From the IMG/VR virus record IMGVR_UViG_3300022745_000030, positions 1-64,000 of that record: a stretch of DNA of 64,000 nucleotides. The stretch is one strand, 5' to 3'. The DNA comes from a virus. The number at the start of each line of letters is the position of its first letter. Within the stretch, counting starts at the first letter, position 1. A program made the translations under genes and the position numbers. Positions 8,291-56,882 of the stretch are shown one piece after another. The notes beneath the pieces were generated by a model. The model worked only from the letters and a program-made list of their open reading frames with translations, was not told the origin of the DNA and ran no database searches.

Positions 8291-8623
8291 ATGTTTTTCG
8301 ATCCGATCTCCGCACACAAGATGGCTTTGGCTCTCCAAGCTAACGATTTCACAGTCGCCAAGGACTTCGGGGTGCTCGTTACCTCGGTAGAGGATCTGGC
8401 AAATTCTGCGATTGTTCCGCCCAAGGTGTATAATCACCAGGAATTAGCAGAACTTATTCTGAACAACCTCCAACTCATGGCGACAGCGTCGGTAGCACAG
8501 GCGTACGGGCAATTCATTCCCGAGATCATGGGTGGAATCCTACAGTATCTGGAGCGATGGGCAAATGGAGAATTTGATAGCCAATCTGAGCAACAAGGTT
8601 CAGAAGAGACAGTTGCAGGGTAG
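8291..8623 (+). CDS. Hypothetical head-module protein
   Basis: 110 residues, mostly helical, with an acidic Gln/Glu-rich C-terminus. It lies two bases after the portal stop and overlaps the start of the next gene. Position suggests a head-assembly role; no motif recognised. Confidence 0.65.
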   Translation: MFFDPISAHKMALALQANDFTVAKDFGVLVTSVEDLANSAIVPPKVYNHQELAELILNNLQLMATASVAQAYGQFIPEIMGGILQYLERWANGEFDSQSEQQGSEETVAG

Positions 8624-9947
8624 ACAATACCTTGTAGCGCCTGTCGCTATGATGGTTGAGGGCGTTCTGCCCGGCAGCCGGGGGCCTTTGCTCTATTCAG
8701 AGGCCCAGATCATGAACTCCGTGGAAGCCTGGAACCACAAGCCAATCACCGTTCGTCACCCAGTGTTGCCGAACGGTGAGTACGGCACAGGTTGCGCGCC
8801 AGAGGCGCTCGATAACGTCGGCGTCGGGATGATCTTGAATACCAAGTACAACAAACGCACCAAGAAACTGGTGGCTGAGGCTTGGTTCGAGGTAGCCCGG
8901 CTGGACATCGTACCACAGGGCGACATTATCCGCAATGCCTTGGAATCCGGCATCAAAATGGAAGTCAGCACCGGTCTAACGGCTGACGTTGCCATCACCA
9001 ATGGTACGTTCAATGGCAAGGAATATGTTGGCGAAGCCACCAACTTCCGACCGGACCACTTGGCGATTCTGATCGATGTCGCTGGTGCCTGCTCGATCGC
9101 TGACGGCGCGGGGCTCCTGGTAAACCAGAAGCGAACTCGGGAAGCCGATCGACTCCTGGTCAACGCCAAGAAAGACCAGTCTCTCATGGAACTCATTAGT
9201 GAGGTCCGGGAAGCGGTCATGGAGACCTACTGCCCTATGCCCTCGGGACCTATGGGCTCCATGAACGATGTCTGGGTGGAAGATGTGTTCAAGGATAGCG
9301 TCATCTTCTACAAGAACGGGGAGTTCTTCAAGCAAAATTTTGCACAAAAAGATGGTTCTGTTACACTATTAGGAGATTTGATACAAGTGGAGCGAAAAAC
9401 CACTTACGAACCTCTAGTAGTAAATACGGCAGCCAAAATGGATCGAGACACACTCATTGCAAAGTTGGGCGACAGTCACAAGGAATTTGTTGCCAACCTG
9501 AGCGACGAACAGGTTTCCGCCTTGCTCGCTCTTTCGGTGCCCGTTGCAAACAGCACCGAGACCGAAACCAACCCAGAGCCAGCCCCGGAACCATCGCCTG
9601 CTCCCGCAGAAGTGGTTACGGAAGTAGTCGCAAACAGCGTCGAGGACGTTGTTGCCGCTGCACCAAAGCACATTCAGGCTCAATTGCGTGACGCCCTGGT
9701 AGCGAACGATCGCCTCCGCAGCGGCTACATCACTGCAATCATCGAAAACAAGAGCAACAAGTTCTCGAAAGACGACTTGGCCTCTTTCTCCACCAGCCAA
9801 TTGGAGCGAATCGCGGAATTGGCAACGGCACCCGTCGTTGTGGCAAACGCGAGCACCCAGCCCCAGCCACGGTTCGTAGGTTCGGCAGGTTCACTGCCTC
9901 CAGCCGAAGTCGAGGCACCTTTGACCCTCCCATCCACTGCCAAGTAA
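8565..9947 (+). CDS. DUF2213-like prohead protease/scaffold protein
   Basis: About 460 residues from the ATG at 8565; an in-frame ATG at 8532 would lengthen the overlap with the upstream gene. The N-terminal half has the DUF2213-like pattern: a VEGVLPG segment, EAWNHKPITVRHP, an ESGIKMEVSTGL segment and FRPDHLAILID. The C-terminal half contains a Pro/Glu-rich linker and helices, as expected of a scaffold. Such proteins combine head-maturation protease and scaffolding roles between the portal and capsid genes. The catalytic residues are not certain from reading alone. Confidence 0.75.
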   Translation: MENLIANLSNKVQKRQLQGRQYLVAPVAMMVEGVLPGSRGPLLYSEAQIMNSVEAWNHKPITVRHPVLPNGEYGTGCAPEALDNVGVGMILNTKYNKRTKKLVAEAWFEVARLDIVPQGDIIRNALESGIKMEVSTGLTADVAITNGTFNGKEYVGEATNFRPDHLAILIDVAGACSIADGAGLLVNQKRTREADRLLVNAKKDQSLMELISEVREAVMETYCPMPSGPMGSMNDVWVEDVFKDSVIFYKNGEFFKQNFAQKDGSVTLLGDLIQVERKTTYEPLVVNTAAKMDRDTLIAKLGDSHKEFVANLSDEQVSALLALSVPVANSTETETNPEPAPEPSPAPAEVVTEVVANSVEDVVAAAPKHIQAQLRDALVANDRLRSGYITAIIENKSNKFSKDDLASFSTSQLERIAELATAPVVVANASTQPQPRFVGSAGSLPPAEVEAPLTLPSTAK

Positions 9948-10446: not shown

Positions 10447-11535
10447 ATGGAAACTGATTTCATTTTGAATGGCGCGGCCCACGGTTCTGTATCACAGAAG
10501 TGGCTCGCAGCAGGCGCAGATGCGGGGATGTTTCGTCCCTGGATCGGCAAGGACGGCAAGACTTACGTTTCGCTTTTCGCCGGTAACGACGACAACGGCG
10601 AACCGAAGTACAACACCGTTCATTTGGCTAACGCCGGGGCAACCCTGCGAAAGAACGAGTGGCAAAAGGTTGACGAGCAAGTTGTAAAGGCTGCCCGTAC
10701 CCGAATGCGTCTCGTCAACGACTTCCGCCAAGCGGGCCTCGTTGTCAATCTTCCAAACGCTTGGGGAACCTCGGTTTTCCAATATGAACGTCAGTCCGAT
10801 ATCTCGGCTGCACGGATCTCGATGGACGGATTGACCCCAGGGGATAACGATCGTCCAGTCTACGACATCGTCAACTTGCCACTGCCTGTTATCAGCAAGC
10901 AAGTCACGATGAACAGCCGGGCAATCGCGATCTCCCGCAACGGCAACACGCCTCTCGACACAGCGAACCTCGAATTGGCTGCAATCAAGGTTGCAGAACA
11001 AGCTGAGGCACTTGTAGCCGGTACCTACGGTACCTACAGTTTCGGTGGCGGCACCGTTTACGGTCTCACCAACTTCCCAAGCCGAATCACGGGCGCCTTC
11101 CTGAACCACACGGTCTCCGGTTGGACCCCAACGATGATGTACAACTCGGTCATCGAAATGATCGATGCGTCCACTCGATCGTTGCACTACGGTCCTTGGA
11201 AGCTGTACTACAGCACCGGCTTGCTCCGTCCGATGATGCAGCAATTCAGCCTGTACGATTCCCGATCGTTGCAAAACGTAATCGGACAACTCCCAGGCAT
11301 CCAAAGCGTCGGAATGCTCGACTATCTCACCGGTAACCAACTCTTGCTCGTCCAGCAAGACGCAAGCACCGCACGGATCGTCATGGGTATGGACATCACC
11401 ACCGTTCAATGGGGAAGCGGTAACGGCCTCGAAGAAAACTTCTTGGTCATGGCGATGATTGTGCCACAGATGAAGACCGATATCAACAGCACCTGTGGTA
11501 TCGTTCACTACACCGGAAACGCAACGACTACCTAA
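10447..11535 (+). CDS. Major capsid protein
   Basis: 362 residues, of a length and position expected for an HK97-fold capsid protein of the family without a long delta domain. It contains an N-arm, a central NLPLPVISKQVTMNSRAIA strand-helix region, a Gly-rich loop near GTYSFGGGTVYG, and a C-terminal domain ending in a beta-rich HYTGNATTT. It follows the decoration gene and is followed by a strong terminator, as usual for a highly expressed capsid gene. No close family name can be assigned by eye. Confidence 0.88.
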   Translation: METDFILNGAAHGSVSQKWLAAGADAGMFRPWIGKDGKTYVSLFAGNDDNGEPKYNTVHLANAGATLRKNEWQKVDEQVVKAARTRMRLVNDFRQAGLVVNLPNAWGTSVFQYERQSDISAARISMDGLTPGDNDRPVYDIVNLPLPVISKQVTMNSRAIAISRNGNTPLDTANLELAAIKVAEQAEALVAGTYGTYSFGGGTVYGLTNFPSRITGAFLNHTVSGWTPTMMYNSVIEMIDASTRSLHYGPWKLYYSTGLLRPMMQQFSLYDSRSLQNVIGQLPGIQSVGMLDYLTGNQLLLVQQDASTARIVMGMDITTVQWGSGNGLEENFLVMAMIVPQMKTDINSTCGIVHYTGNATTT

Positions 11536-11569: not shown

Positions 11570-11611
11570 CACCCCCAGTGTAGTAGCAATACTGCACCGG
11601 GGGTGTTTTTC
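11570..11611 (+). terminator. Rho-independent terminator after capsid gene
   Basis: CACCCCC (11570-11576) pairs with GGGGGTG (11599-11605), with an inner GTG/CAC, followed by TTTTT. It should cut or reduce readthrough from the head operon into the membrane-protein cassette. Confidence 0.85.
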
Positions 11612-11634: not shown

Positions 11635-11841
11635 ATGCCAGCAGAACAAGAACCAGTCGTATTCCGCAAGTACCGTATTGTGGAAGGTATGCACATGCAC
11701 GGTCAAGAACTCCTGAAAAAGGGCGATGAACTCGTCAGCGGAGATGATCTCGTCAAACTCTACGGGCCGAAGTTCGAGTTTATCGAGGAAGTCCCGGCAC
11801 CGGGGCAACCAGCACCAGAAGCCAAAAAGGCCAAGGCGTAA
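11635..11841 (+). CDS. Hypothetical small protein
   Basis: 68 residues with a predicted compact beta region (FRKYRIVEGMHMHGQELLKKGDELV) and a Pro/Ala/Lys-rich tail. It follows the capsid terminator and precedes small membrane proteins. Function unknown. Confidence 0.6.
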   Translation: MPAEQEPVVFRKYRIVEGMHMHGQELLKKGDELVSGDDLVKLYGPKFEFIEEVPAPGQPAPEAKKAKA

Positions 11842-11843
11842 CA

Positions 11844-12116
11844 ATGCCAAGACTTGGATTATTGCGAAAGCGACTCGCCGCGCGAGTCGCCAAGGACGCA
11901 TGGTTAGCGTCTAACGGGGACAAGGATGCCTACGAAGCCGCCGTCAAGGCGGACAGTCGCTTGGTTGGCATCGACCCGGCAACAATCATTCTCATTATCC
12001 GTTTGATTTGGGCAGCCTATGAGTGGTTCAAGAACCGCAAGGCGTCCGCAGACCAGCACCTTGCTACCTCTGAGGATGATATCCTCCTGGGAGCCGTGCC
12101 ATACTACAAGGGCTAA
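11844..12116 (+). CDS. Small membrane protein
   Basis: 90 residues. A basic N-terminus is followed by one hydrophobic helix (DPATIILIIRLIWAAYEWF, about residues 45-62) and a charged tail. It starts 2 nt after the previous stop. It could be a holin or anti-holin of the putative lysis cassette, but a single-helix protein has many possible roles. Confidence 0.6.
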   Translation: MPRLGLLRKRLAARVAKDAWLASNGDKDAYEAAVKADSRLVGIDPATIILIIRLIWAAYEWFKNRKASADQHLATSEDDILLGAVPYYKG

Positions 12117-12118
12117 TC

Positions 12119-12403
12119 ATGCCAGACCTAACAACCATTTTGAGTATCTTGGGCGCCGGTGGCGCCGGTATCTGGGGCCTGTGGGCGTTCGTCAAGAACA
12201 AGGCCCCTGTGGCTGCCGATCTCGTCGAAGAGATCGTATCCAAGCTCAATGACGCCAAACCAGTACCGAACGCGGCTCCGGGCCGTTTAGAGGCTCTGGA
12301 GAAGGCGGAGTCTTTGCTCCAATTCTTCGAGAGCAAGGGCAACACGGCTGGGGCAGATGCTATCCAGGTCGTAGTCAAGGAAATTCTTGCATCGAAGGCG
12401 TAA
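12119..12403 (+). CDS. Small membrane protein with helical tail
   Basis: 94 residues. An N-terminal hydrophobic segment (LTTILSILGAGGAGIWGLW, about 4-22) is followed by an amphipathic helical domain. Holin-like by size and shape only. Confidence 0.6.
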   Translation: MPDLTTILSILGAGGAGIWGLWAFVKNKAPVAADLVEEIVSKLNDAKPVPNAAPGRLEALEKAESLLQFFESKGNTAGADAIQVVVKEILASKA

Positions 12404-12407
12404 TCCG

Positions 12408-12812
12408 ATGCAAAAGAAAATCCCGATTTGGCCTGCTATCGTTTTGGCTTTGGTGTCCCTGGGCTCCCTGGGACTCAAGCACGCGCCGTCCGAGTGGACT
12501 TCCTGGGCATCCATTGTCCCGGTATCGATCGAGGGTACTGAGGTCCTGTTCGTCCATGAGACGCAGTACCCCACAGTGTCCGAGGTTCTAGCCCTCCGTG
12601 AACTTCCGAAGTTCTGTGAGGACAACAAATGCCGAGGGTTCACGGACGTAGACGACGATAGCGAATGGGCGCAGCCTATCCTATCGGCTGTCAAAGAGAA
12701 GTACAAGATCGAGTCGCCTTTCCTGGCAGCCGCTAAGGTATCCGATGGCAGTGTCACCGGGGTAGTCAAGGCGGTTCCGTTCAAGGAAAGCCTACAGGAC
12801 CTAAAGAAATGA
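12408..12812 (+). CDS. Exported protein of unknown function
   Basis: 134 residues from the ATG at 12408; the in-frame upstream Met lies inside the preceding gene. The N-terminus is a typical signal peptide or anchor (basic MQKK, then a hydrophobic core to about residue 22). The remainder is acidic with two Cys (PKFCEDNKCRGF) that could form a disulphide. It overlaps the start of the papain-like peptidase by 4 nt (ATGA), so the two are probably made together; it could be a partner or inhibitor. Confidence 0.6.
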   Translation: MQKKIPIWPAIVLALVSLGSLGLKHAPSEWTSWASIVPVSIEGTEVLFVHETQYPTVSEVLALRELPKFCEDNKCRGFTDVDDDSEWAQPILSAVKEKYKIESPFLAAAKVSDGSVTGVVKAVPFKESLQDLKK

Positions 12813-13708
12813 CCCAGGAACTAGAGACGTTCAAGCTAGAGGGCGGAGAAACAGTCCGTTGCGGGCTTTTGCTCCCTACCGAGGAACAGAAGCAACTGTG
12901 CCTCGCGTATCCTGAGTACGGCGAGAACTTCTACCTAGAAAAGAACGATATCCGCAAAGCACTCCAGAATGACGTGTACAAGACGTTTCGCCGACTGCGA
13001 TCGCCTTGGATCACGAATCAGGCTGATATGGGTGCTTGTGGTGCGTTTGCAGAAGTAAATGCCCAGCACAACCGCCGAGGCATCCAGGGTCTTCCGCACG
13101 TTGTCCTGAGCGCTCATTACCTGTACATGAATATCAACGGGGGCCGGGATAACGGTAGCGCCTTGGTGGACTCTTTGGAGTTCAGCAAGAAAGGCATCGC
13201 ACCTCGCGAGTTAGATGTCGGGGGCAAGAAAGTCCTGTTCCCGGCAGCCTACAACAAAAATTCGGTATCGGCAAGCATTTACAAGGCAGCCGCTGAACAG
13301 TCCGTACTGTACCGCAGCTACGAGGCATACCGGCTACCGTCTCAGGACTACAGTACGTTCAGTATCGCTTTAGCCTCGGCCCTAGCAAGAGATCATCAAG
13401 TGGTCTTTGCGTGGCACGTAGGTCGGTATTCTAATCGCCTGAAAAACGGGTACGTCGTTACCGGCAACGGGCCAGGAAACCACGCCAATGTTTTCCATAG
13501 TGGAAAATGGGTAGATGGAGAGGATTTGGTTCACCCAGATGGCGAAAATAGCTGGGGACCAACAAAGAACCCACTTTACGGCCCACTGGGTGCCGGGTGG
13601 GGCGAGGATGGATTCGGGCTATTCACCATGCAGCAGGCTTACCAGTGCGCTCGGAATCATACCTTTTGGGTTTACACGGGGAATGTAATCACTAAGGAGT
13701 CACTATGA
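12809..13708 (+). CDS. Papain-like (C1A) cysteine peptidase
   Basis: 299 residues. The catalytic set is visible: Gln71 and Cys77 in NQADMGACGAFAE, six apart as in papain; His225 in GNHANVFHSG; Asn247 in NSWG; and a downstream WGEDGFGLF matching the end of C1A domains. There is no signal peptide. About 50 residues precede the domain, possibly a propeptide. It lies among membrane and exported proteins between capsid and fibre genes. I infer a role in lysis or in breaching a protein-rich envelope; virion processing is the alternative. A cell-wall hydrolase of a classic type was not found in this window. Confidence 0.85.
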   Translation: MTQELETFKLEGGETVRCGLLLPTEEQKQLCLAYPEYGENFYLEKNDIRKALQNDVYKTFRRLRSPWITNQADMGACGAFAEVNAQHNRRGIQGLPHVVLSAHYLYMNINGGRDNGSALVDSLEFSKKGIAPRELDVGGKKVLFPAAYNKNSVSASIYKAAAEQSVLYRSYEAYRLPSQDYSTFSIALASALARDHQVVFAWHVGRYSNRLKNGYVVTGNGPGNHANVFHSGKWVDGEDLVHPDGENSWGPTKNPLYGPLGAGWGEDGFGLFTMQQAYQCARNHTFWVYTGNVITKESL

Positions 13709-14181
13709 GTGACGCATGGAAATTCGTAGTCGCTGGGTTTGTCGCTTTCTGCCTGATGAATTCGGTTCAAAAGATCACCGAACAGCAAAAGAAGTTGCGG
13801 GAGCAGGTCTCCCAGGCAATCGAACTGCTCGAAAAGGTACCTTTGCCCGATAACCTCGTTCCGGGAGCCCCGCAAGAGGTAGCCCAGGAACCGGTAGCCG
13901 AGAAGCCGGTTCCCAAGGAACCCGAGAAGCCTGCGGCCCCTGAAAAGCAGAAAATGGTAGTCGTCCAGCATACCATGAATGGTTGCGGGTGGTGCGACTA
14001 CGACAAGCGGCGAATTCTGCCTACTTGGGCAGCGATCGGTTATACTATTAAGACGGTAGACGAGAAATCGGGAATCCCCGGAAAAAGCTACCCATACTAC
14101 GAAATATATGGACCAAACGGGGAAGTTCAGAGCCACGTCGGGTCCCTATCCGCATTTGGTACCCCACCTAGAAAGCCGTAA
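13705..14181 (+). CDS. Membrane-anchored thioredoxin-like protein
   Basis: 158 residues: an N-terminal membrane anchor (about 6-20), a short coiled coil, a Pro/Glu/Lys-rich linker (about 50-82), then a thioredoxin-like domain. The redox motif is CGWC (94-97), and SYPYYEIYGPNGE supplies a candidate cis-proline. The topology would place the domain outside the cytoplasmic membrane if the N-terminus stays in. It overlaps the papain-like gene by 4 nt (ATGA) and may keep that cysteine peptidase, or virion disulphides, in the right redox state. Confidence 0.8.
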   Translation: MSDAWKFVVAGFVAFCLMNSVQKITEQQKKLREQVSQAIELLEKVPLPDNLVPGAPQEVAQEPVAEKPVPKEPEKPAAPEKQKMVVVQHTMNGCGWCDYDKRRILPTWAAIGYTIKTVDEKSGIPGKSYPYYEIYGPNGEVQSHVGSLSAFGTPPRKP

Positions 14182-14183
14182 CT

Positions 14184-14513
14184 ATGTTATTTGCTCAGGT
14201 TCCCACCGAATCAGTAGACCAGATAACAAAAATCGCCTCGGGAACCGGGTACACGGCAACCGGGGTTCTTTTGATTGTGCTTGCCGCAATCGGCTACGCG
14301 ATTTGGAAGGTAGCCCTGTGGGCAGGAGTCCGGGTCGATAAGTTGCTGGAACGGGCATTCAGTCACCTGGATGACGTGAAATCGGTGATGGGCAGCCTGG
14401 AAGCCAGTATCTCCAAGATCCCCACGCGCCTCGATTCGATCGAGGGCAAGGTGGACGGTCTTACAACCCGAGTCGATAAGCTGGACGATCACCTGTTCAA
14501 GGATTCCAAATAG
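14184..14513 (+). CDS. Holin-like membrane protein with coiled coil
   Basis: 109 residues. A hydrophobic helix (about 24-45, TATGVLLIVLAAIGYAIW) precedes a long heptad-like helix (LDSIEGKVDGLTTRVDKL). The shape recalls XhlA-type lysis proteins, though their helix is usually C-terminal. It lies in the candidate lysis cassette. The final base of its TAG stop is the first base of the fibre gene GTG. Confidence 0.55.
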   Translation: MLFAQVPTESVDQITKIASGTGYTATGVLLIVLAAIGYAIWKVALWAGVRVDKLLERAFSHLDDVKSVMGSLEASISKIPTRLDSIEGKVDGLTTRVDKLDDHLFKDSK

Positions 14514-16972
14514 TGGTTGCTGCCTACGCGGGTACCCGAAAAGCATTCACCGACGTTGTTCGGTACGGCACTGCGCAGATTCTTTCTAGCTTGCAGAAGG
14601 ATATCGCGCGGGGTAACATCGGACTAGCTGCCACGGACAGTGTAGCGTTCAAAAGTGTTACAGTAGCGGGCGACCCAGTAGACGGCTACTCTGGGGTTCT
14701 CGGACTTTACGATCCAACTGTGGGGGAAGCTAGAGAACTTTTCTCGTATGACGGGGAACTGCTTTACGCAGGCTATCAAGTTGCCCGCGATCACGGCGCT
14801 CCGACATTTGCAAACGTCAAACTTGATCCGACTGGCACCATTTCGTTCAACAATGGAACTTCGTATATTCCGCTCGGCCTAAGCGGCTCTGATCTGGCGT
14901 TCAATGGCTCTCGAATTGCATTGTTTAGCGACTTGTCATCCTATCAACCACTTGATGCCGACCTCACGGCGATTGCAGCGTTGACGACAACGACGTTTGG
15001 TCGTTCGCTGTTGACGCAGGCTGACGCGGCAACAACGCGGGCGACAATTGGAGCAGGCACATCTAGCTTTGACGGTGCGTTCTCGTCGCTGAGTGGTAAG
15101 CCGACAACTCTGAGCGGCTACGGTATAACCGACGCAACCACCAACGCTCGTTCTGCTCTTTCGTTCGTCGCTGGTTCTGGTGCGTACAATTCGACGACTG
15201 GCGTTATCACAATCCCGACGAATACAAGCCAGTTATCAAACGGGGCTGGCTATTTAACCGGAAACCAAAGCATTACGGTTTCAGGTGATGCTACTGGCAG
15301 CGGAACGACTTCGATTGCTTTAACGCTGGCTACAGTTGCAACGGCTGGAACGTACCGAAGCGTAACTGTCAACGCAAAGGGCCTTGTTACTGCTGGAACA
15401 AACCCAACGACGTTGGCTGGTTATGGGATTACCGACGCTGTCACCTCTGGCGGTGCGTTAGGCACTCCATCTAGCGGAACGCTTACCAATTGCACTGGAT
15501 ACACTTTTGCAAACATTGCAAGCAAGCCGACGACGCTAAGCGGATACGGTATCACTGATTCTGTCGCTTTGACAACTGGCAAGCTATCCCAATTCGCAGC
15601 GACCACATCAAGCGAGCTGGCTGGCGTCATTAGCGACGAGACTGGAAGCGGGGCGTTGGTGTTCGGAACTGCTCCAACGATTAGCAACCCGACGTTCAAT
15701 CAATTCAATCTCAGCGGCAACATTAGTTCGGCTGCATGGACAACTAGCGGCATTCGCATCAAGGGTGTACCGGCGACGTTTACTGATACAACATCAGCAG
15801 GAACAGTTGCGGCAGCGTACACGAATCATTTGGGGGGCAACACGATCGCGGCTAGCAACGCCGTCACGTTCACCAATTACATCACGACATTCATTCAGGA
15901 CCCAGTCGCTGGTACGAATGTCACGTTTACTAACCGATGGGCACTCGGCGCAGAATCGGCACGATTCGGAACATCGAATCAAGTAACGATCTCGAATAGT
16001 GGCGTGCTCTCTGCGATTTCGCCAGTATTCACAGGAACGCCCGTATGTCGTTTCGCGTCTGGCACGCCTGGAACGGACGAGCTTGAGTTGTCCCATGATG
16101 GAACGTATGCGACTCTTTACAACAAGAAGTACACGACTAGCCAAGCAGGGCGAATGCGGCTTGGTAATAACTCTGTATTGTTCGGTGCCGAATCAACGGT
16201 CATCGGGTTTAGAGCAACCTGGAGCACATCGACTAATCGGGTCACTTTCTCCATGGGGAGTGATACAGGGGCTCAGGTAGCGAATGTGACTATGGCGAAC
16301 GTCACGGCAAGCGCTGGCTTGAGACTGACTGGCGCTGGAACTGGGTTTATCGAGTTCTGGAACGCAGCGGACACCGCACAGGATTTGGTTATTGTTCGCG
16401 ATGCTGCTGACACACTTGGTCAGCGTCGCGGCACTAACGCACAAACATGGCGACTGTACGGCACCTACACAGATGCCAGTAACTATCGGAGACTGTACCT
16501 GTCTAGCACCACTGGAGGGGCTTTCACTCTGGGTGTGGAAGGGCTGGGGACAGGTGCCGCCGGAAACACGTTGGCGATAGCCGGTTTGTCAACAATAACT
16601 GGAGCTTCTGGCGACATAATCATCAATTCTTCGACTGGGACCGATGTCGTCTTTCAATCAAACGGAACTGAAACGTTCCGCGTAAAATCCGGGTCGCAAG
16701 GAATTGCGTTTGTTTCAACGTCTCAAATTATCAAATTTGCCGGTACAACCGGACTAGCACAAAACGCGAACGGCGTGGTTGAAGTCAATAGCGGCACAGC
16801 AGGCACTCTGCGAGACCTCTTGTTGCGAGATATCACGCTCACACCATCGACCACGAGAACACTTAGCACGAATGGTCAATTCTCAATCGAGATGACCTCG
16901 AACACGGCAGGAAATCTCGTCTATCGCGGCTCAGATGGAGTTACCCGTAGATTTGCATTCACTGTTTCATAG
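14513..16972 (+). CDS. Tail fibre / receptor-binding protein
   Basis: 819 residues starting at GTG. After about 190 residues there are tail-fibre collagen-like-type repeats built on (K/N)PTTLxGYGITDA, three copies near residues 197, 304 and 339, then long Ser/Thr/Gly-rich beta segments ending in a YRGSDGVTRRFAF motif as in many fibre tips. It likely binds the host surface. The coding DNA is nearly free of the CCGGGTA-type words common in its neighbours, so it may have been exchanged horizontally. It lies between capsid and connector genes, which is unusual. Confidence 0.85.
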   Translation: MVAAYAGTRKAFTDVVRYGTAQILSSLQKDIARGNIGLAATDSVAFKSVTVAGDPVDGYSGVLGLYDPTVGEARELFSYDGELLYAGYQVARDHGAPTFANVKLDPTGTISFNNGTSYIPLGLSGSDLAFNGSRIALFSDLSSYQPLDADLTAIAALTTTTFGRSLLTQADAATTRATIGAGTSSFDGAFSSLSGKPTTLSGYGITDATTNARSALSFVAGSGAYNSTTGVITIPTNTSQLSNGAGYLTGNQSITVSGDATGSGTTSIALTLATVATAGTYRSVTVNAKGLVTAGTNPTTLAGYGITDAVTSGGALGTPSSGTLTNCTGYTFANIASKPTTLSGYGITDSVALTTGKLSQFAATTSSELAGVISDETGSGALVFGTAPTISNPTFNQFNLSGNISSAAWTTSGIRIKGVPATFTDTTSAGTVAAAYTNHLGGNTIAASNAVTFTNYITTFIQDPVAGTNVTFTNRWALGAESARFGTSNQVTISNSGVLSAISPVFTGTPVCRFASGTPGTDELELSHDGTYATLYNKKYTTSQAGRMRLGNNSVLFGAESTVIGFRATWSTSTNRVTFSMGSDTGAQVANVTMANVTASAGLRLTGAGTGFIEFWNAADTAQDLVIVRDAADTLGQRRGTNAQTWRLYGTYTDASNYRRLYLSSTTGGAFTLGVEGLGTGAAGNTLAIAGLSTITGASGDIIINSSTGTDVVFQSNGTETFRVKSGSQGIAFVSTSQIIKFAGTTGLAQNANGVVEVNSGTAGTLRDLLLRDITLTPSTTRTLSTNGQFSIEMTSNTAGNLVYRGSDGVTRRFAFTVS

Positions 16973-24464: not shown

Positions 24465-24935
24465 ATGAGCAAAGAACCAGTAATCTCCGTTCGTCAGTCC
24501 GGGTCCCCAGTAGAGCAAGATCGATGCACCATTACGATTATGGCGCATTACCAGGAGTGGGACCCACCAACGGTAACCCACGTCCGGCACGCATTCGACT
24601 ACTTGGAAGACCCGGCTAGCGTTCCGCAGCAATCGACCATCCGGGTAGACGTTACCCAGCGAACCGAGGTCCCTCGCGGGACCTCAGAACCGGGGCATTG
24701 TGTCTACATCCTGGAGCACCAAATAGCGAAGATTTCGTCGAAATCAGAGCACAAGGATCTATTGCAAAAAGCCCAGGAATCGAATATCATTACTTTATCT
24801 AATGAAGACGGGGTTGCTATGGGTATCCTACTGCCTAATCGATCCTGTGTTTGCCACTTCCCAGGCAAAGTCTACGCGCAGGGTTCCTCCGCTACGTCTT
24901 TGCTGCACGTATCAGTGATGCCAGCCAATGCCTGA
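24465..24935 (+). CDS. Minor tail protein, small
   Basis: 156 residues, with beta strands and three Cys. It is coupled to the next gene by an 8-nt overlap. Tail-tip role inferred from position only. Confidence 0.6.
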   Translation: MSKEPVISVRQSGSPVEQDRCTITIMAHYQEWDPPTVTHVRHAFDYLEDPASVPQQSTIRVDVTQRTEVPRGTSEPGHCVYILEHQIAKISSKSEHKDLLQKAQESNIITLSNEDGVAMGILLPNRSCVCHFPGKVYAQGSSATSLLHVSVMPANA

Positions 24936-27900
24936 ACCACGCTATTATCTGTGTGAGCAAGACAAGCAACTCCTGGAGGGAATGCACCGCAGGAGTAAGT
25001 CTGACCCACCACGACCAATTGCGGCTAGGGCTGAACCGATCGAGAAGTCTGAGGCGGATTCGTACTATGCGCTTCCGCCTTGCGATACCGGGATTCCCCG
25101 TGCATCTACAGAATTTGTAGGCGCGCCTGGGCTACTTCCCGGTAGGGCGTCATGCTGCCTATACAAACTCAACCGCGAAACAGGGATACTTGATCCGTAT
25201 GTGGACGACAGTGGGGTACCATACCGTGCGACTGTACACAATCCCACGGACTTTAGTATCATCGACATGGTACCTATCTCGCAGACGCGAGAAGGCGACT
25301 GGGTGGCTATGCCTATCCTTGGGCAAAATGCGTTGCAATCGCTTATCAATGCAAGCACCACCCAACCCCCTGTCACTACGATTGGGCCGAATAGTCCTCT
25401 CTGCGAGGGGGAATGTCTATGGACAGAAGATGGCACCGGCAAATGGGCAGCGGTAACCGGGGGATGTCGCAACACGTCCACCACGTCGAGCACCGCTCCG
25501 CCCACAACGATTGTACCATCAACAAGCACATCTAGCACGTCCACGACTACACTCAACCCCTGTTACCCGTACGGATGTACTCTCAAATGCGTTCGGGTAT
25601 CCACCACAACCGGCGCCCCAGGAACCAGCACCACTCCAGGTCCAGCGAATACCGGCTTAGTTTACCAGCAAGACGGGGCAGGTTGTGCGGGTGGTTGCAC
25701 CTGTTATGGCGCAGGGGACCCATGCTTCCTGGAAGGCGCAACCATTGATTCTCGGTGCCTGTATGTCTCACCGACTACATCCAGCACCCCGCGACCCACA
25801 ACCACGCCTTGGCCGGATGAAGCGTGCCAGATTGTAGGCAACGCTTTCGGTGCCGCATACACGAATATCTATCGCGCGGCGCTGAATGTCCGAGATACCG
25901 CCGCAGGGTGGAAGGTATGCCAAGACTGCCCCGATGGGACTGTACCATACAATTACCCACAAGCCGCAGTACATTCTGACGCAGCCAATACCTTTGAAAG
26001 TACATTCGATCGCCTGGAATTGGCGGAAGACGACAGCGCTCCCACCTCTTCGGGTAAGAAGGGCGCGTGGCTTTTTGAGTCACCCTGTGTGTTCCCAGCC
26101 TGCCAAAACTTGGCGCCGCCACCTTCGGGAATGGCGCGGTTCACAGTAACAGATACCCAGAACATGCACTTGCGAACAGCGGCGCAGCTACTGGGATCGA
26201 TTCGCCCTGGTACCCGTCTATACGAGTATCTATCTAAGATCGCTTCCGAGGGAGGTGATGTAAATTTCAGCATCTTCCAGAAAACCAGCGTCTACGGGTT
26301 AGACTCGCTCCTGAGTGCGGAGCTACTTGGAAGAGAGCTACCTGTTTCTATAAACGAATGCGTATCCTGCCCCAGTGGTACCCGCGTAAAGTTCTCGCCG
26401 ATGGATACCATCAGCTATAGCCCAGGACCTGTCAAGGGGGGCTTTCTGCGGCAAGCCCACAACACGGATGGTATCGACGATGACGCAAACATCTACAATG
26501 TAAACAGCGTCGTACGCTACGTCATCGATGTTCCGTGTGTTTCTGGGCTATCTTGTGATGTATGTCCTCCCGTTCGTATCCTGGAACCACTAGCTAATAC
26601 ATCGGTAACCCTGGGCACCACAACTACCACATCATCTACCCGGCCACCCTGCGGCTGCATTCCGCCTGATTTCTGCCCGGCAACCGGGCAATGCGTACGC
26701 ACAGGATGTGTACCCGGTGGCGCGGGATATGGAACCGTGACCACCAAGATGCCGCAATGCCCGACCACGGCACCCCCAACGGGTGCGTGCTTTAACGGCA
26801 TCCGGTGGTGCAATTGCTACGCTTCTACATCGTCCACCTCGTCTACATCGTCCACCTCTACCCAGCCGCCGAGTGCGTTCAAATGCACATGGCGATGCCT
26901 GAATAATGATACTGGGGGTTATTCAGCTACGCTGATCTATACCAACACAGGCTACCCGACGTGCTACAAATGTGTCAAGCCTACTTGTACCGGTTGCGGT
27001 ATTGTCATTACGGACGGCACCTATGACCAGACGCTGTGCTCCACCACTACCTCGGGACCACCTACCAGTACCTGTAGTCCCCCTTCTGGGTCTTGTAAAT
27101 GGGCTGCCGATCCTGACGGATTCGATTCATCCGGTATGCCTATCTCATTCAAATGGCGATCTGTTGGTACAGGCATCATAAATCTGTTCCCGTGCAATCC
27201 TAGCGATCGTCCGCCGTTGTATGCTGGTACCCAGTGCAATTGCTGCCGTCCTCCTAACTCGCCCCCAGGGAGCATTTGCGAGACTGCCTATACACCATGC
27301 GAAGCCTGTGGCCCGCAACGTGACGACTGTGGTTGCTGCCAGGGCAACGCCTGCGATAAGGTATGTCGCTACAAGGGCGATGGTTCTGGTTGGTGGATTA
27401 TTATGTCTAACCCATGCTCGGGTCCTTGCCCTTGCCCGCTGCCTAATTTCCCGTCAAAGGATAGCTGTGATACGGTGCAATACAAGTGCGGTACCGTAGT
27501 CACATCAACGACGAGCAGTACCCCGGCACCCGTTGGAATGTGCTGTCTCTATGGCGATGTGGCCCACACGGTTCCTCACGGCAGCGCCTGCCCTAAGACA
27601 AATGCGGAATGTGCCTCCCTGGCGGCCTCGTACGGTCCATATTACATCTGGACAGCCGGGGCACCTTGCGGCACAGTATGCTCCACATCAACCACTTCGT
27701 CAACCTCGACATCGAGCACCCCAGCCCCTACAGGTCGATGCTGTCTGTTTAACGCAGATGGTACTGCGATCGCTACCGGGACAACTGGGTGCGTGGATGG
27801 TAAGACCGCAGCCGAATGCGTTCCTGGACTTCTGGGAGCACCTCGCGTGATTTGGACAGCGGGCGCTACCTGCACCATCATTACGGGTGTGGGGTGCCCA

Positions 27901-28260
27901 ACGTCTACTACCCCGGTGCCCACCGGTAAGTGTTGTCGGTACACCGACTACACTTACACGGTACCGGTGACTTGCGACGAGGGCGTTACCCAGGCAGACT
28001 GTGCTGGATTCTCGGTTCCGTACCACTGGTCTAACGGTAGCGTTTGCTTTGGTACACTAACCGAAAGCTGTCCGACGAGTACGACTACCACCACGACATC
28101 GACTACGACAAACACAACAACCAACACCACAGCAACACCACCTACTGGCGCCTGCTGTATAAACGGTATCTGTGTGCAGACGTATGCCGGTATCTGCGGT
28201 GCTAATGGCGGTACTTGGTTCGGTGGTACCTGTGCCGGGGTAGTTTGCCCGGAAGTGTAG
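24928..28260 (+). CDS. Giant Thr/Ser- and Cys-rich tail protein
   Basis: 1110 residues. An N-terminal region of about 160 residues is followed by many Thr/Ser-rich linkers of the STSSTSTSST type separating Cys-rich blocks. The last 240 residues hold four related modules beginning GMCC, GRCC, GKCC and GACC at about residues 868, 936, 998 and 1073, each with further Cys and a late Trp. No signal peptide is seen. As the last large tail gene it is a candidate adhesin or receptor-binding tip whose linkers could be glycosylated; the next gene encodes a glycosyltransferase. Confidence 0.8.
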   Translation: MPEPRYYLCEQDKQLLEGMHRRSKSDPPRPIAARAEPIEKSEADSYYALPPCDTGIPRASTEFVGAPGLLPGRASCCLYKLNRETGILDPYVDDSGVPYRATVHNPTDFSIIDMVPISQTREGDWVAMPILGQNALQSLINASTTQPPVTTIGPNSPLCEGECLWTEDGTGKWAAVTGGCRNTSTTSSTAPPTTIVPSTSTSSTSTTTLNPCYPYGCTLKCVRVSTTTGAPGTSTTPGPANTGLVYQQDGAGCAGGCTCYGAGDPCFLEGATIDSRCLYVSPTTSSTPRPTTTPWPDEACQIVGNAFGAAYTNIYRAALNVRDTAAGWKVCQDCPDGTVPYNYPQAAVHSDAANTFESTFDRLELAEDDSAPTSSGKKGAWLFESPCVFPACQNLAPPPSGMARFTVTDTQNMHLRTAAQLLGSIRPGTRLYEYLSKIASEGGDVNFSIFQKTSVYGLDSLLSAELLGRELPVSINECVSCPSGTRVKFSPMDTISYSPGPVKGGFLRQAHNTDGIDDDANIYNVNSVVRYVIDVPCVSGLSCDVCPPVRILEPLANTSVTLGTTTTTSSTRPPCGCIPPDFCPATGQCVRTGCVPGGAGYGTVTTKMPQCPTTAPPTGACFNGIRWCNCYASTSSTSSTSSTSTQPPSAFKCTWRCLNNDTGGYSATLIYTNTGYPTCYKCVKPTCTGCGIVITDGTYDQTLCSTTTSGPPTSTCSPPSGSCKWAADPDGFDSSGMPISFKWRSVGTGIINLFPCNPSDRPPLYAGTQCNCCRPPNSPPGSICETAYTPCEACGPQRDDCGCCQGNACDKVCRYKGDGSGWWIIMSNPCSGPCPCPLPNFPSKDSCDTVQYKCGTVVTSTTSSTPAPVGMCCLYGDVAHTVPHGSACPKTNAECASLAASYGPYYIWTAGAPCGTVCSTSTTSSTSTSSTPAPTGRCCLFNADGTAIATGTTGCVDGKTAAECVPGLLGAPRVIWTAGATCTIITGVGCPTSTTPVPTGKCCRYTDYTYTVPVTCDEGVTQADCAGFSVPYHWSNGSVCFGTLTESCPTSTTTTTTSTTTNTTTNTTATPPTGACCINGICVQTYAGICGANGGTWFGGTCAGVVCPEV

Positions 28261-52827: not shown

Positions 52828-53679
52828 CTACTTGGCTCCCTGAATCCGGCGAGCGAACCTCCATGTCATTGCCCGTCCTTCGTCCCTTGGCGATATTACC
52901 ATAGGAACGTCGCCGCACCCGCCGTTAGCTACCTGACAAACGTATTGGTTGCGTGTCGTGTCGATTCCGATAGCCAGTAGTTTACGCTTGTACCACAAAT
53001 TACCGGTATCGCTCACTTCGATGATCGTACCCACGTCGTGTTGATCGATCGGACGAGAAGGATCTCTTTCCGGGGGGACTTCCTGGGTATCCTGCGGGGT
53101 AACTTCAACAAAGGCGTGCCGCCAACCTGTGCTATCCTCGTCTTGCCACCCGTGCGTCCAATCGGGAAAATACCCATAGATAGTGGACTTTTTCCAGTTC
53201 TCCAGCGGTTCTTTTTCATTGTCTGTGAACCACGCCTCTTTGCCCCAGTCTTCCGGCATTTGTGCCGGGCGCGTTTGAATCTTGGGCTCTGGCTTTGCTT
53301 CTGATGAGCACCAATAAACCGGAACGGCGTAGCCCCCATCACAGGTGACTAAGGTGCGGTCACTGGCTCGCAATCGTTTCAGTTGCACCCATGTGCCCCT
53401 GCGCCCGTCCAGACCATTTGCCCATGTAACACAGTCGAATGGGTGTTTATGCGTGGGTTTGCAGAACTTGACCCAGCCGCCGTCGCAGTACCCAGGAACA
53501 GGTGGATACACTACGTCCTCGCCCCATTCGACATCGAGTGGTATGCACTTGAACCAGTCGTCGCCGTTTTCGCGGATACGAATCATATCGTCAACCGAAG
53601 TGACCGCGATCATGTCGGCGCTTGGGTATAGGATTTTGACTCGATCGAATGCCTCTTGTGGGGCTAGCTTTTGGGTCAT
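52828..53679 (-). CDS. Paralogue of TPQEAF small-protein family
   Basis: 283 residues from the ATG at 53679, in ATGA overlap. It begins MTQKLAPQEAFDRVKILYPSADMI, and the same N-terminus recurs in the proteins at 60490 and 62521. It also carries a central DWGKEAWFTDN and later DVGTIIEVSD strands also seen in the 62521 protein. Function unknown; three paralogues in one genome suggest diversification. Confidence 0.7.
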   Translation of the reverse strand: MTQKLAPQEAFDRVKILYPSADMIAVTSVDDMIRIRENGDDWFKCIPLDVEWGEDVVYPPVPGYCDGGWVKFCKPTHKHPFDCVTWANGLDGRRGTWVQLKRLRASDRTLVTCDGGYAVPVYWCSSEAKPEPKIQTRPAQMPEDWGKEAWFTDNEKEPLENWKKSTIYGYFPDWTHGWQDEDSTGWRHAFVEVTPQDTQEVPPERDPSRPIDQHDVGTIIEVSDTGNLWYKRKLLAIGIDTTRNQYVCQVANGGCGDVPMVISPRDEGRAMTWRFARRIQGAK

Positions 53680-54329
53680 TTCATTGCCTCTACTATTTCT
53701 TTGAGTCGCTTGCCGCTGCCTGCTCGGGTGGGCCAAGTTCCCTGGGTACTTTCTTTCCCCAGCCACTCCATCCCGCCCGAGATAACACCGACTACTTTGC
53801 CCTTCACCAGCATCGGACCACCCGACTGCCCTGGCAGAGCCACGCCATCAGTATACACATATCCGTCTTTGAGCAAAGAGAGAAATCCGATACTTTCTGT
53901 CGCTGATTCCCTGCCACCGGCAAATCCTAGCCATTTGCAGGGCACCCTGGGCGGCGCATAATCGGGTCCGCCTTCGCCTACCCATTCATCAGGAGCCCCG
54001 ATCTCCAGCACCGGGATATCGACTTCCGGGGTCTGAACGATCGCTAGATCGCTGGCAGCTTCTACTGCGACACAGGTACCCTGAATCGAGTCGCCCGAGG
54101 GCAGAATGATCGTGTAGGAGTTCCCGGAATAGATTTGCTGCTTACTTTCCCGGTACTGTACTACGTGGGCTGCGGTACCAAAGAATGTTTTGCCGGGTAT
54201 CGTCTTCACAGCAAAACAGGTACCAGATGCGTTGTCGGGAGTTCTAATCCTTGCGATCGAATCCCGTTCCCCGGCTGCCGCAACACTCGACAGCAAAACC
54301 AATACTAGACACCATACTTTCGTTGCCAT
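53676..54329 (-). CDS. Secreted trypsin-like serine protease
   Basis: 217 residues. The signal peptide (MATKVWCLVLVLLSSVAAA) precedes a chymotrypsin-fold triad: His55 in GTAAHVV, Asp94 in ASDLAIV and Ser169 in PGQSGGPM. It is exported and could act on host surface proteins, or on a protein layer during lysis. Lying in the replication module, it may act early at the envelope. It overlaps the preceding small gene by 25 nt. Confidence 0.9.
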   Translation of the reverse strand: MATKVWCLVLVLLSSVAAAGERDSIARIRTPDNASGTCFAVKTIPGKTFFGTAAHVVQYRESKQQIYSGNSYTIILPSGDSIQGTCVAVEAASDLAIVQTPEVDIPVLEIGAPDEWVGEGGPDYAPPRVPCKWLGFAGGRESATESIGFLSLLKDGYVYTDGVALPGQSGGPMLVKGKVVGVISGGMEWLGKESTQGTWPTRAGSGKRLKEIVEAMK

Positions 54330-54526
54330 TCTACACCATTCTTTCTTCGGACCCTCGCTGAGTGTACCGAAAATGCTAAAGACTCTTCTTTTTCAATCGC
54401 GCGAATCATCAAAATCTCAATCACCTCTCCGTAGTCCCAGCCGTTTGCCCGGCACATGGCTGCGAAGTCCTCGACCACCGCTGTCTGGATATCAGAAATC
54501 TTTAGCGAACAGCGTTTAGTCGGCAT
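54305..54526 (-). CDS. Hypothetical small protein
   Basis: 73 residues, mostly helical, starting 11 nt inside the end of the helicase gene. It resembles small RHH- or anti-type regulators only vaguely (CSLKISDIQTAVVEDFA). Function unknown. Confidence 0.6.
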   Translation of the reverse strand: MPTKRCSLKISDIQTAVVEDFAAMCRANGWDYGEVIEILMIRAIEKEESLAFSVHSARVRRKNGVEWQRKYGV

Positions 54527-56882
54527 AGGTCTCTTTCAGCATGTCCCAGATAGGTAGGCTCTTGGTCACCTGTCCGTCGATGACTTGATCCTGGATAGCC
54601 TGTTTCTTTTGGATGGCTTCGCAGAGGCGTTCCTCGATCGTACCCTTAGCCACAAGGAAGTAGATTTCTACTTCCTTGTCCTGGCCGATGCGGTGGTTGC
54701 GGTCCTGCCCCTGGGATACCTTGGTTGGGTTCCAAGGTAGCTCGCACCAGATCGTTGTAGTGGCTGCGGTCAGCGTGATACCCGAGTTACCCGATACGAT
54801 GTTGCAGACGATGACTTGGCACTCGGGGTCTTTTTGGAATCGTTCGATAGCCTCTTGCCGTTTCTTAGCGTTCACGCTCCCGTTAATCAGTACCGATCGC
54901 TGAGGATCGATTCTTCGCATTAGGACATCGGCAAAAGCGATATGGGTGCAGAAGATAATGATCTTCTTTTCCGGGTGTGTTTTTCGGTAGTTCAGAATCC
55001 ACTCAACGGTTGCCCTAGCCTTTAGCCGGGCGGATAGTCCTAGGGTGACCGACACCTTGGTCAGCGCTGCGGCTTTGAGTTCTTTCTTGATCTTGCCTTT
55101 GGCAAACCGGGATTCTTTCACCCAGTTCTTGAGATCGGTTTCTGCCTTGTCGTACTCTTCCCGATTGTCGATCTCTAGCGGAACCACAGTTGTAGTGCGT
55201 TCCGGGAGCCCGAGAATTTCTTTCTTGCGGCGAATGGTAAACGGTTTGATTCTCTGGTGTAGTTCATCTAGGTTGCTAGCGCCCGAGTAGTCCACGCCCC
55301 AGGGCGTCCTGCGCGGAGCACAGTACCGGGCACCGTATGCCGTGAAACTCGGGAACATCGCGGGCTTAATCATGTGCAGCGTCGGGTAGAAGTCCTCGGG
55401 GCGGTTCCCGATAGGAGTTCCCGACATACAGATACACTGCTTCGCGCGACGAGATAGCGAGATCGCGGCTTTGGTTACCTTGGCTGCCCGGTTGCTCAGA
55501 TTCTGCGACTCGTCGCAGATGAAGATTTCGTAGAACCAGCTACCAATTGCTGGGGCTTGGTGGTGCAGAATCGGGTAGTTGACTACCACTAGCTGGGTAT
55601 CTGGTTCGATCTCGTTAGGCGTCTCGCCTTCGAGCACCTGCACCTTGATGCCGGGTGCCCACATTTCAGCCTCGATACGCCAGTTATGCTTCACCGAGGT
55701 AGGACATACTACTATCGCAGGCCACACCTTGTCTGTGTGCAAGTATGACAGAATGCTGCCAGTATTGTGCGTTAGAATGTACCCACGTGTGACATACAAG
55801 CTGTCTGGCGCGTCTACCTTTATACATACGCACTCTTCGAATTCGCCAGTAGGTTCTACACTGGCGATTCTGCGGAATACCGCTTTCCTGCATTTTGTTG
55901 GACTGAACCTGGAAGCCTTCCGGGGAACGCTAAATGGGTTTTCCCAGTCTAGCAGTCGGATGCAGACCTGAAACTCTGTGGGTTTTCCGTGGGCTTCTCG
56001 GTTATACTCGCGGATACCGGCTGATCCTCCTATGCTTAATACTAGCTCGCTCACGTCGTGCGCTAATCTACGGCTAGTCGTATGATACGTTACTTTATTC
56101 CCTGTCTTAGATATAGACCCGTCGCAGTCCATTAGTCCTTGCAGAAGTGCTTTCCTGTCGGCTACAGAGGCTCTCTTATATTCCTCTGGTATAAACTTGC
56201 CGCCTGACAGCACATTCAAGCCTAGGCTATCAATAATACGGCGATACGGCTGCGACGTTAATCCTGTGGCGACGCACCCGATCTTTTGCCTGCTTTTTGT
56301 TATGCTCACGCCTTCCGCTTGCAACCGAGATAAAACATGCGGAGAGTCTTCGTTATGCGATGTGATAACTATACACCCTTTATGCAGACTGCCGTTTGCG
56401 ATTAGGCATCCCATTGTGTATGGGCCTATTTCGAGAGTACTTGCTACCGAGAACTCGACCGGACTTAATGCCGGTAGCAGAACAGAACGATAGCTATCGC
56501 ATCCTGACACCAATTGCTTCGCAACATCTGCTGTAGTGCATGTTCTCCAAACCCTATCCCCCTTGCGTGTAGCTCGGTTGGATATTGTCCACAGATGGGT
56601 GTTGGTGCATCTGGTGTATTGTCCAGTCTGCGTTTCCACTTTGTAAATGGGCTTTATGCCTTGGGGATATACCCCAAGCACCTTTGTCGGTTTGCCGTTG
56701 GAGCCAATAACGTAGTCCCCCACCTGTAGTGAGCCTATCGGCTTCCAACCATCAGGCGTGAGAGCAGGCTCCGACACTGGCTGGTCTTTACCTAAGCCTT
56801 GGTCGTCTGCTACAAGTGCAGTTCCATTCACGTCATGAAGGAACTGCACTGCTTCCTCTTGGTGTGGGTACAGCGTGTACAT
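54516..56882 (-). CDS. SNF2-type helicase interrupted by an intein
   Basis: 788 residues of precursor; the mature helicase would be 447. Motif I is DDQGLGK...T (26-32, then the first residue after the intein), motif II DESQ (ICDESQNLSN), motif III MSGTPIGN, and motif VI QGQDRNHRIGQ. This is the SNF2/DEAD-like core of phage helicases. The insertion splits the GKT exactly after the Lys, so the enzyme should be active only after splicing. It starts at 56882. Confidence 0.92.
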   Translation of the reverse strand: MYTLYPHQEEAVQFLHDVNGTALVADDQGLGKDQPVSEPALTPDGWKPIGSLQVGDYVIGSNGKPTKVLGVYPQGIKPIYKVETQTGQYTRCTNTHLWTISNRATRKGDRVWRTCTTADVAKQLVSGCDSYRSVLLPALSPVEFSVASTLEIGPYTMGCLIANGSLHKGCIVITSHNEDSPHVLSRLQAEGVSITKSRQKIGCVATGLTSQPYRRIIDSLGLNVLSGGKFIPEEYKRASVADRKALLQGLMDCDGSISKTGNKVTYHTTSRRLAHDVSELVLSIGGSAGIREYNREAHGKPTEFQVCIRLLDWENPFSVPRKASRFSPTKCRKAVFRRIASVEPTGEFEECVCIKVDAPDSLYVTRGYILTHNTGSILSYLHTDKVWPAIVVCPTSVKHNWRIEAEMWAPGIKVQVLEGETPNEIEPDTQLVVVNYPILHHQAPAIGSWFYEIFICDESQNLSNRAAKVTKAAISLSRRAKQCICMSGTPIGNRPEDFYPTLHMIKPAMFPSFTAYGARYCAPRRTPWGVDYSGASNLDELHQRIKPFTIRRKKEILGLPERTTTVVPLEIDNREEYDKAETDLKNWVKESRFAKGKIKKELKAAALTKVSVTLGLSARLKARATVEWILNYRKTHPEKKIIIFCTHIAFADVLMRRIDPQRSVLINGSVNAKKRQEAIERFQKDPECQVIVCNIVSGNSGITLTAATTTIWCELPWNPTKVSQGQDRNHRIGQDKEVEIYFLVAKGTIEERLCEAIQKKQAIQDQVIDGQVTKSLPIWDMLKETYAD
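55764..56786 (-). other. Class 3-type intein with LAGLIDADG endonuclease
   Basis: 341 residues in the helicase gene. It begins with Asp (DQPVSEPALTPDGW), not Cys or Ser, and ends THN before Thr of the extein. The class 3 triplet is visible: Trp66 in TNTHLW (block B), Cys321 in CVCIKV (block F) and Thr+1. The middle has two LAGLIDADG-like motifs, GCLIANGSL and LLQGLMDCDGS. It sits in the P-loop, a favoured site. Confidence 0.9.

Follow-up and report, generated by a model that had tools for sequence, protein, structure and literature searches.

We have found that six adjacent genes (11844-14513), lying between the major capsid gene and the fibre gene of a phage, form a block confined to a close group of relatives. 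They encode two small membrane proteins, an exported protein, a papain-like peptidase, a membrane-anchored CxxC protein and a membrane/coiled-coil protein. We give about an even chance to the reading that the block is a lysis cassette, in which a cysteine-peptidase lysin would be released by a holin and would have a redox partner. A new finding within the block is that a 154-bp segment of the peptidase gene is traded between otherwise near-identical phages. The window is the 64,000-nucleotide stretch that was analyzed, taken from a viral record of 69,333 bases of which the remaining 5.3 kb was likewise read.

Organization of the gene block

Our own ORF calls recovered all seven ORFs described in an earlier note on this DNA, with the same ends (11635-11841 through 14184-14513). 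Where that note had spoken of small membrane proteins, the products of 11844-12116 and 12119-12403 fit the description, but the 68-amino-acid product of 11635-11841 (plus strand) has no transmembrane (TM) segment. Because HMM searches placed relatives of this last gene directly 3′ of the capsid gene (10447-11535 in the window; DUF6260, E = 8e-26) in most capsid-relative phages, including those that lack the block, we regard it as a general head-region gene outside the cassette.

All six block genes are on the plus strand. The first (11844-12116) encodes a 90-amino-acid protein with one TM segment (IDPATIILIIRLIWAA), a holin candidate, and the second (12119-12403) a 94-amino-acid protein with an N-terminal TM segment. 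The third (12408-12812) encodes a 134-amino-acid signal-anchored or exported protein, in which an N-terminal hydrophobic stretch is preceded by basic residues; its ORF spans 12387-12812, and we prefer the ATG at 12408 as the start because the part upstream of it is absent from the relatives. The 299-amino-acid peptidase (12809-13708) is followed by the 158-amino-acid CxxC protein (13705-14181) and by a 109-amino-acid protein (14184-14513) with a TM segment and a C-terminal coiled coil, which resembles XhlA-type holin accessory proteins. The fibre gene (14513-16972) forms the downstream flank in this uncultured phage. The ATGA overlap reported between the peptidase and CxxC genes is real (13705-13708), and there is a second one between the exported-protein and peptidase genes (12809-12812). 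A promoter scan gave matches at chance level, and one weak terminator-like stem was found on the plus strand at 11594-11606.

Conservation of the block among relatives

Per-gene HMMs were searched against all ORFs of the loci collected earlier and of 79 more that had been retrieved with the capsid protein. The six genes were restricted to the window phage and nine IMG/VR relatives (L003, L005, L006, L007, L008, L009, L010, L011 and L012), in identical order; the first two block genes were also present on a truncated contig (L017). The peptidase is the best-kept protein of the block (54 to 58% identity to the window protein, with 59 to 63% for the capsid protein and about 18 to 45% for the other block genes, among them the exported protein at 30 to 37%). 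Among close relatives, dN/dS was 0.06 to 0.15 for the peptidase gene and reached 0.45 for the thioredoxin-like gene; the peptidase thus evolves under purifying selection. L005 and L006 are near-identical. The whole records of L005 and L007, however, are collinear with the window at protein identities of roughly 23 to 70%, and the sample is therefore a divergent viral group rather than a single strain seen repeatedly.

The 90-amino-acid protein is restricted to the cassette phages, and its hydropathy maximum (KD19) was 1.9 to 2.4 in the relatives measured. The 109-amino-acid protein is conserved in all relatives; its TM segment has a KD19 of 2.19, and it gave weak matches to XhlA (E = 0.039) and to PHROG hemolysin/holin families, and a match to phrog_12015 (E = 3e-8), a family that has no assigned function. 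No block protein significantly matched a holin family in Pfam or PHROG, so that it is the TM segments and the weak XhlA-like match that point to holins. In most relatives an extra gene for a holin-like protein of 67 to 69 amino acids follows the 94-amino-acid gene directly (9406-9615 in L005); it is missing from the window. When searched against the 4,947 ORFs of the viral papain loci described below, its sole match (E = 0.048) lay directly upstream of the papain gene of one of them, L117.

A papain-like cysteine peptidase

The full catalytic set claimed for the peptidase is real. The oxyanion-hole glutamine and the catalytic cysteine, histidine and asparagine (Q71, C77, H225 and N247) occur in that order and are invariant in the homologues, in a gene of a distant capsid relative (L077) and in two bona fide phage papains that match PF00112. 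Sequence analysis indicated that the protein is leaderless, with no signal peptide. Single-sequence searches of Pfam, NCBIfam, PHROGs and PDB gave no significant family match, and scans of genome contigs for peptidase homologues found none. The peptidase HMM (A13), however, matched one gene of L077 (193-996; E = 1.2e-5), which itself matches phrog_16701, "peptidase" (8e-5), and weakly PF00112 (0.44). Through L077 we reached two isolated phages, Burkholderia phage FLC9 (PF00112, 1.9e-12) and Alicyclobacillus phage MMB025. A profile built from the FLC9 and MMB025 sequences plus one more phage papain, with the window-group sequences left out, aligned in register with A13 over the cysteine loop with an hhalign probability of 78% (94% with L077), against 5% or less for column-shuffled controls; the scores were 42.6 to 56.6, against a shuffled maximum of 20.9 to 25.8. 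When A13 was run on 79 further papain loci, its best matches were the papain genes (E = 1e-4, lowest 1.1e-4, to 0.03). On the basis of these HMM matches, the shuffled controls and the four invariant residues, the predicted membership of the peptidase in the papain family (C1A, xylellain type) is well supported.

An AlphaFold2 model of the peptidase built from four sequences had a pLDDT of 33, and the papain fold is thus a prediction from sequence. Two further results did not enter into the assignment. A pooled alignment (A16) that matched xylellain at 6e-32 was discarded as circular, since true papains had been included in it, and a match to Vibrio phage 367.14 (E = 5) was a chance match in a tail region.

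Exchange of an active-site segment

L005 and L006, which come from different metagenomes, differ at 59 of 20,594 sites, and 43 of these differences fall within 154 bp of the peptidase gene. Within this block the two are 72% identical, against 99% elsewhere in the gene. It starts just 5′ of the catalytic cysteine codon and ends at a loop that we take to correspond to the one forming the S2/S3 subsites in papain; the matching segment of the window gene (13019-13174, plus strand) surrounds C77 and this presumed S2/S3 loop. Comparison of L007 with L011 gave 82% identity inside the block and 97% outside it, and that of L009 with L011 gave 100% and 96%, respectively. Two linked states are seen, N78-S117-G122 and A78-A117-A122, and the window has G78-S117-S122.

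The substitutions in the block are mixed and often silent, and it therefore looks like an imported old allele and not like the product of targeted mutagenesis. A diversity-generating retroelement was rejected as the cause because the substitutions show no adenine bias and many are silent. The exchange points to selection for different versions of the active cleft, which would suit an enzyme confronted with host substrates or inhibitors that vary; the alternative is that localized gene conversion made the patch without selection. The main caution is that the patch could be an artefact of chimeric assembly, against which stands the identical block common to L009 and L011.

A membrane-anchored thioredoxin-like protein

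In the alignment of homologues of the 158-amino-acid protein, the CxxC motif (C94-G-W-C97 in the window) and a cis-proline are invariant, with CGWC, CVAC, CPAC, CPPC, CKQC and CSAC as variants of the motif. Single-sequence searches of Pfam, NCBIfam, PHROGs and PDB gave nothing significant, and a profile of the protein matched DsbC/DsbG weakly (E = 0.5 to 1.3). An AlphaFold2 model of the domain had a pLDDT of 84.7 and a pTM of 0.73, and a Foldseek search of PDB with it returned thioredoxins, DsbD-gamma and thioredoxin fusions as top matches (E = 5e-4, probability 1.00). A thioredoxin fold for the CxxC domain is thus supported by modelling. The N-terminal hydrophobic stretch is weak in the window protein (KD19 1.5) and stronger in the relatives. 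Between the membrane segment and the domain the relatives have a cysteine-rich stretch (e.g., CSNAACPCEDCTCKDCKCG), where the window protein has a linker rich in proline, glutamate and lysine. The charges flanking the membrane segment do not reveal the orientation of the domain, and it is for this reason that we can only infer that the peptidase is kept reduced by this partner. The idea that the exported protein (12408-12812) has a second thioredoxin fold found no support, as no profile linked it to the thioredoxin domain.

Papain genes in other phages

In L077, the papain-like gene is overlapped by the next gene, which encodes a thioredoxin-like protein that has a signal peptide and a cysteine-rich tail (Thioredoxin_7, E = 0.009), and a TM/coiled-coil-like protein is encoded about 2 kb further on. 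Relative to the capsid gene, the pair is positioned differently from the window block. This pairing, seen in one contig, is independent of the window block, and because the lineage is far removed it is unlikely to be an accident.

We also compared 79 viral papain loci. When all were pooled, giant phages included, the neighbours of papain genes showed no enrichment in TM or CxxC proteins. Only after this unsplit test were contigs of ordinary size separated from those of giant phages. In the former, small TM genes were 2.8-fold enriched within 1.5 kb of papains (0.20 versus 0.07 per kb; permutation p = 0.001); beside giant-phage papains they were not enriched. As giant-phage papains lack a lysis context, we rejected the general rule that a papain means a lysin. 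Among the individual neighborhoods, three that were assigned by eye look like lysis cassettes: L117 (holin-like protein, papain, exported protein, coiled-coil/TM protein), L121 (papain, glycoside-hydrolase-like protein, holin-like protein) and L146 (XhlA-like protein, second cysteine-peptidase-like protein, papain, holin-like protein). L064 has, downstream of its capsid and connector genes, a holin-like and a lipoprotein-like gene followed by a canonical papain gene, and the annotated endolysin of MMB025 joins PF00112 to an Rv2525c-type glycoside hydrolase and PG_binding_1.

Search for classical lysins

The observation that no classical lysin is visible in the window extends to the whole 69,333-base contig and to two long relatives. 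Pfam searches of the 72 noncassette ORFs of the contig found no lysin family, six-frame searches for Amidase_2, SLT, Phage_lysozyme, Peptidase_M15_3, M23 and CHAP found none, and the 61- and 53-kb relatives contained no known lysin family. Since many genes of the phage match no family, there may be a lysin of unfamiliar fold elsewhere, or one encoded on a part that the contig lacks; alternative candidates are a 543-amino-acid gene at 250-1881 and a trypsin-like gene at 53676-54329.

Discussion

Our reading of the block as a lysis cassette draws on its conservation, on three long contigs free of classical lysins, on the L077 pairing and on the papain neighborhoods. In this scheme the small membrane proteins, serving as holin and holin accessory, would breach the inner membrane. 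The peptidase, which is leaderless, would fold and be active in the reducing cytoplasm, would exit in the way that classical endolysins do and, once released, might cut proteins of the envelope or peptide cross-links. The thioredoxin-fold protein, anchored in the membrane, would keep the catalytic cysteine reduced outside the cytoplasm, open disulfides in envelope substrates, or both. Papains encoded beside holin-like genes, and one that is joined to wall-binding and glycoside-hydrolase domains in a phage "endolysin", lend the lysis reading comparative support. Of the interpretation in the earlier note, a protein-degrading lysis system kept reduced by a redox partner, the cysteine peptidase and the thioredoxin fold are supported and their pairing recurs in L077; the redox coupling we still infer, as we do topology, lysis, the export of the peptidase and the role of the holin-like proteins. 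That these phages use a distinct mode of lysis, in which C1A proteolysis of a protein-dependent and perhaps disulfide-rich envelope is combined with a dedicated membrane thioredoxin and a traded module for active-cleft specificity, is a tentative proposal and rather unlikely to hold in full.

Several facts would also suit an intracellular protease for host takeover or antidefense, with the thioredoxin-like and membrane proteins serving separate neighboring functions: the peptidase is leaderless, it would need no redox partner in a reducing cytoplasm, the canonical papains of giant phages occur in varied contexts without TM neighbors, and exchange at the active site would be in keeping with an arms race against host targets or inhibitors. 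We consider this unlikely because the peptidase gene is strictly linked to one set of membrane and redox genes in each of the 10 phages, within the late head-tail region, and because L077 again pairs such a gene with an exported thioredoxin. A role for the peptidase, and perhaps for the redox protein too, in the virion or in its processing (e.g., head, tail or fibre maturation) is weaker than the lysis reading and seems to us quite unlikely. The block does sit between capsid and tail genes, next to the 68-amino-acid head-region gene, but block-less capsid relatives have complete sets of head-tail genes, several of the partner proteins are membrane proteins, and the head module has a DUF2213 protein of its own (by position and size, gene 8532-9947), of a family that we take to be usually annotated as prohead protease or scaffold.

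The thioredoxin-fold protein could instead be a disulfide isomerase or reductase for a tail protein of the phage or for the host envelope, with the peptidase a lysin that is independent of it. The weak DsbC/DsbG matches fit this, as does a 1,110-amino-acid tail protein rich in cysteine and threonine (24928-28260), whose homologue in the L007 record is 8.2% cysteine; a plasmid search with this protein found nothing. The cytoplasm in which tail proteins assemble is reducing, however, and the redox gene is coupled to the peptidase gene in L077 as well, where the full tail region lies outside the contig, which makes the idea improbable. Least probable, in our estimation, is a role of the peptidase and redox protein in changing the surface proteins of the host during infection, as surface remodelling or superinfection exclusion. 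Exported and membrane proteins do adjoin the fibre genes and the active-site segment is variable, but such a role would leave these phages with no known lysin and does not account for the holin-like genes of the block.

C1A enzymes have already been reported in Caudoviricetes (PMC10380794), and the literature that we searched contains no report combining a C1A phage enzyme with a thioredoxin and a holin. Xylellain-type bacterial C1A peptidases (PDB 3OIS; PF00112; phrog_16701) share the Q-C-H-N set, the GxCxA and NSWG motifs and the leaderless state with the window peptidase, which, by contrast, has no PF00112, NCBIfam or PHROGs sequence match and represents a divergent branch that is linked to a block of membrane and thioredoxin genes. 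The endolysin of MMB025 (PV686781, CDS0095) likewise places a papain domain in what is annotated as a phage lysis protein, but there it is fused to glycoside-hydrolase and peptidoglycan-binding domains, whereas the window enzyme has a single domain. Holin-endolysin cassettes of the PBSX XhlA-XhlB-XlyA type have the same small TM proteins, TM/coiled-coil protein and adjacent leaderless enzyme; the window block differs in having a C1A peptidase as its enzyme and a thioredoxin-fold protein besides. With thioredoxin, DsbD-gamma and DsbC proteins the window protein has the CxxC motif, the cis-proline and the fold in common, but in its group the protein is membrane anchored, is phage encoded within the block and, in the relatives, carries a cysteine-rich linker. 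The nearest working precedent for the proposed mechanism is PeiP, a cysteine peptidase of an archaeal phage for which lysis requires a reducing environment (PMC2989375). The pseudomurein endoisopeptidases PeiP and PeiW of methanogen phages (C71) are likewise reduction-dependent cysteine peptidases that lyse the host wall (PMC2989375); they belong to another peptidase family and have wall-binding repeats, and the text consulted mentions no dedicated redox partner.

Annotation pipelines may miss lysis genes of this kind, because the key protein matches no family model. The exchange at the active site provides a natural experiment that could show what an enzyme of this kind must match. To our knowledge, nearly all known lysis enzymes of double-stranded DNA phages cut peptidoglycan. 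A conserved block of protease and thioredoxin genes in phages with no known lysin suggests that protein cleavage is the means by which some bacteria are opened, which would be informative about their envelopes.

Segment exchange in the peptidase gene

Comparison of two relatives that share the gene block at 11844-14513 (L005 and L006) showed that a 154-bp block around the codon for the peptidase catalytic cysteine (L005 10204-10357) has been swapped between copies of the same gene in phages that are elsewhere 99.7% identical. The residues of this block are linked in two states, and its counterpart in the window lies at about 13019-13174.

Other genes of the phage and its relatives

The tail region encodes a Cys- and Thr-rich protein of 1,110 amino acids with repeated CC...C motifs (24928-28260, + strand), a homologue of which, at 836-3970 in L102 (the record of relative L007), has a Cys content of 8.2%. 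A trypsin-like serine protease (53676-54329, − strand; PF13365, E = 1.1e-13) is encoded on the same strand as the replication genes. On the − strand, an SNF2-type helicase gene (54516-56882) is apparently split by an intein-like insertion, as judged from a LAGLIDADG family match in the phage and from intein-like residues after the Walker region. The helicase homologue at 7070-8503 in L100 (the record of L005) is shorter. Relatives (record L100) encode a CsrA homologue and thymidylate synthase, neither of which was among the family matches of the window phage. Pfam and PHROG searches with the 543-amino-acid protein at 250-1881 (− strand) gave no matches.

The contig end

The contig ends in a short tandem repeat of the GNTGYGNTG type, open in several frames (9054-9334 of L002, which covers the far end), and this repeat is probably why assembly stopped there. 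Also beyond the window, the phage encodes a small RF-1 (GGQ) domain protein (contig 65495-65923; L002 5496-5924), possibly a ribosome-rescue factor.
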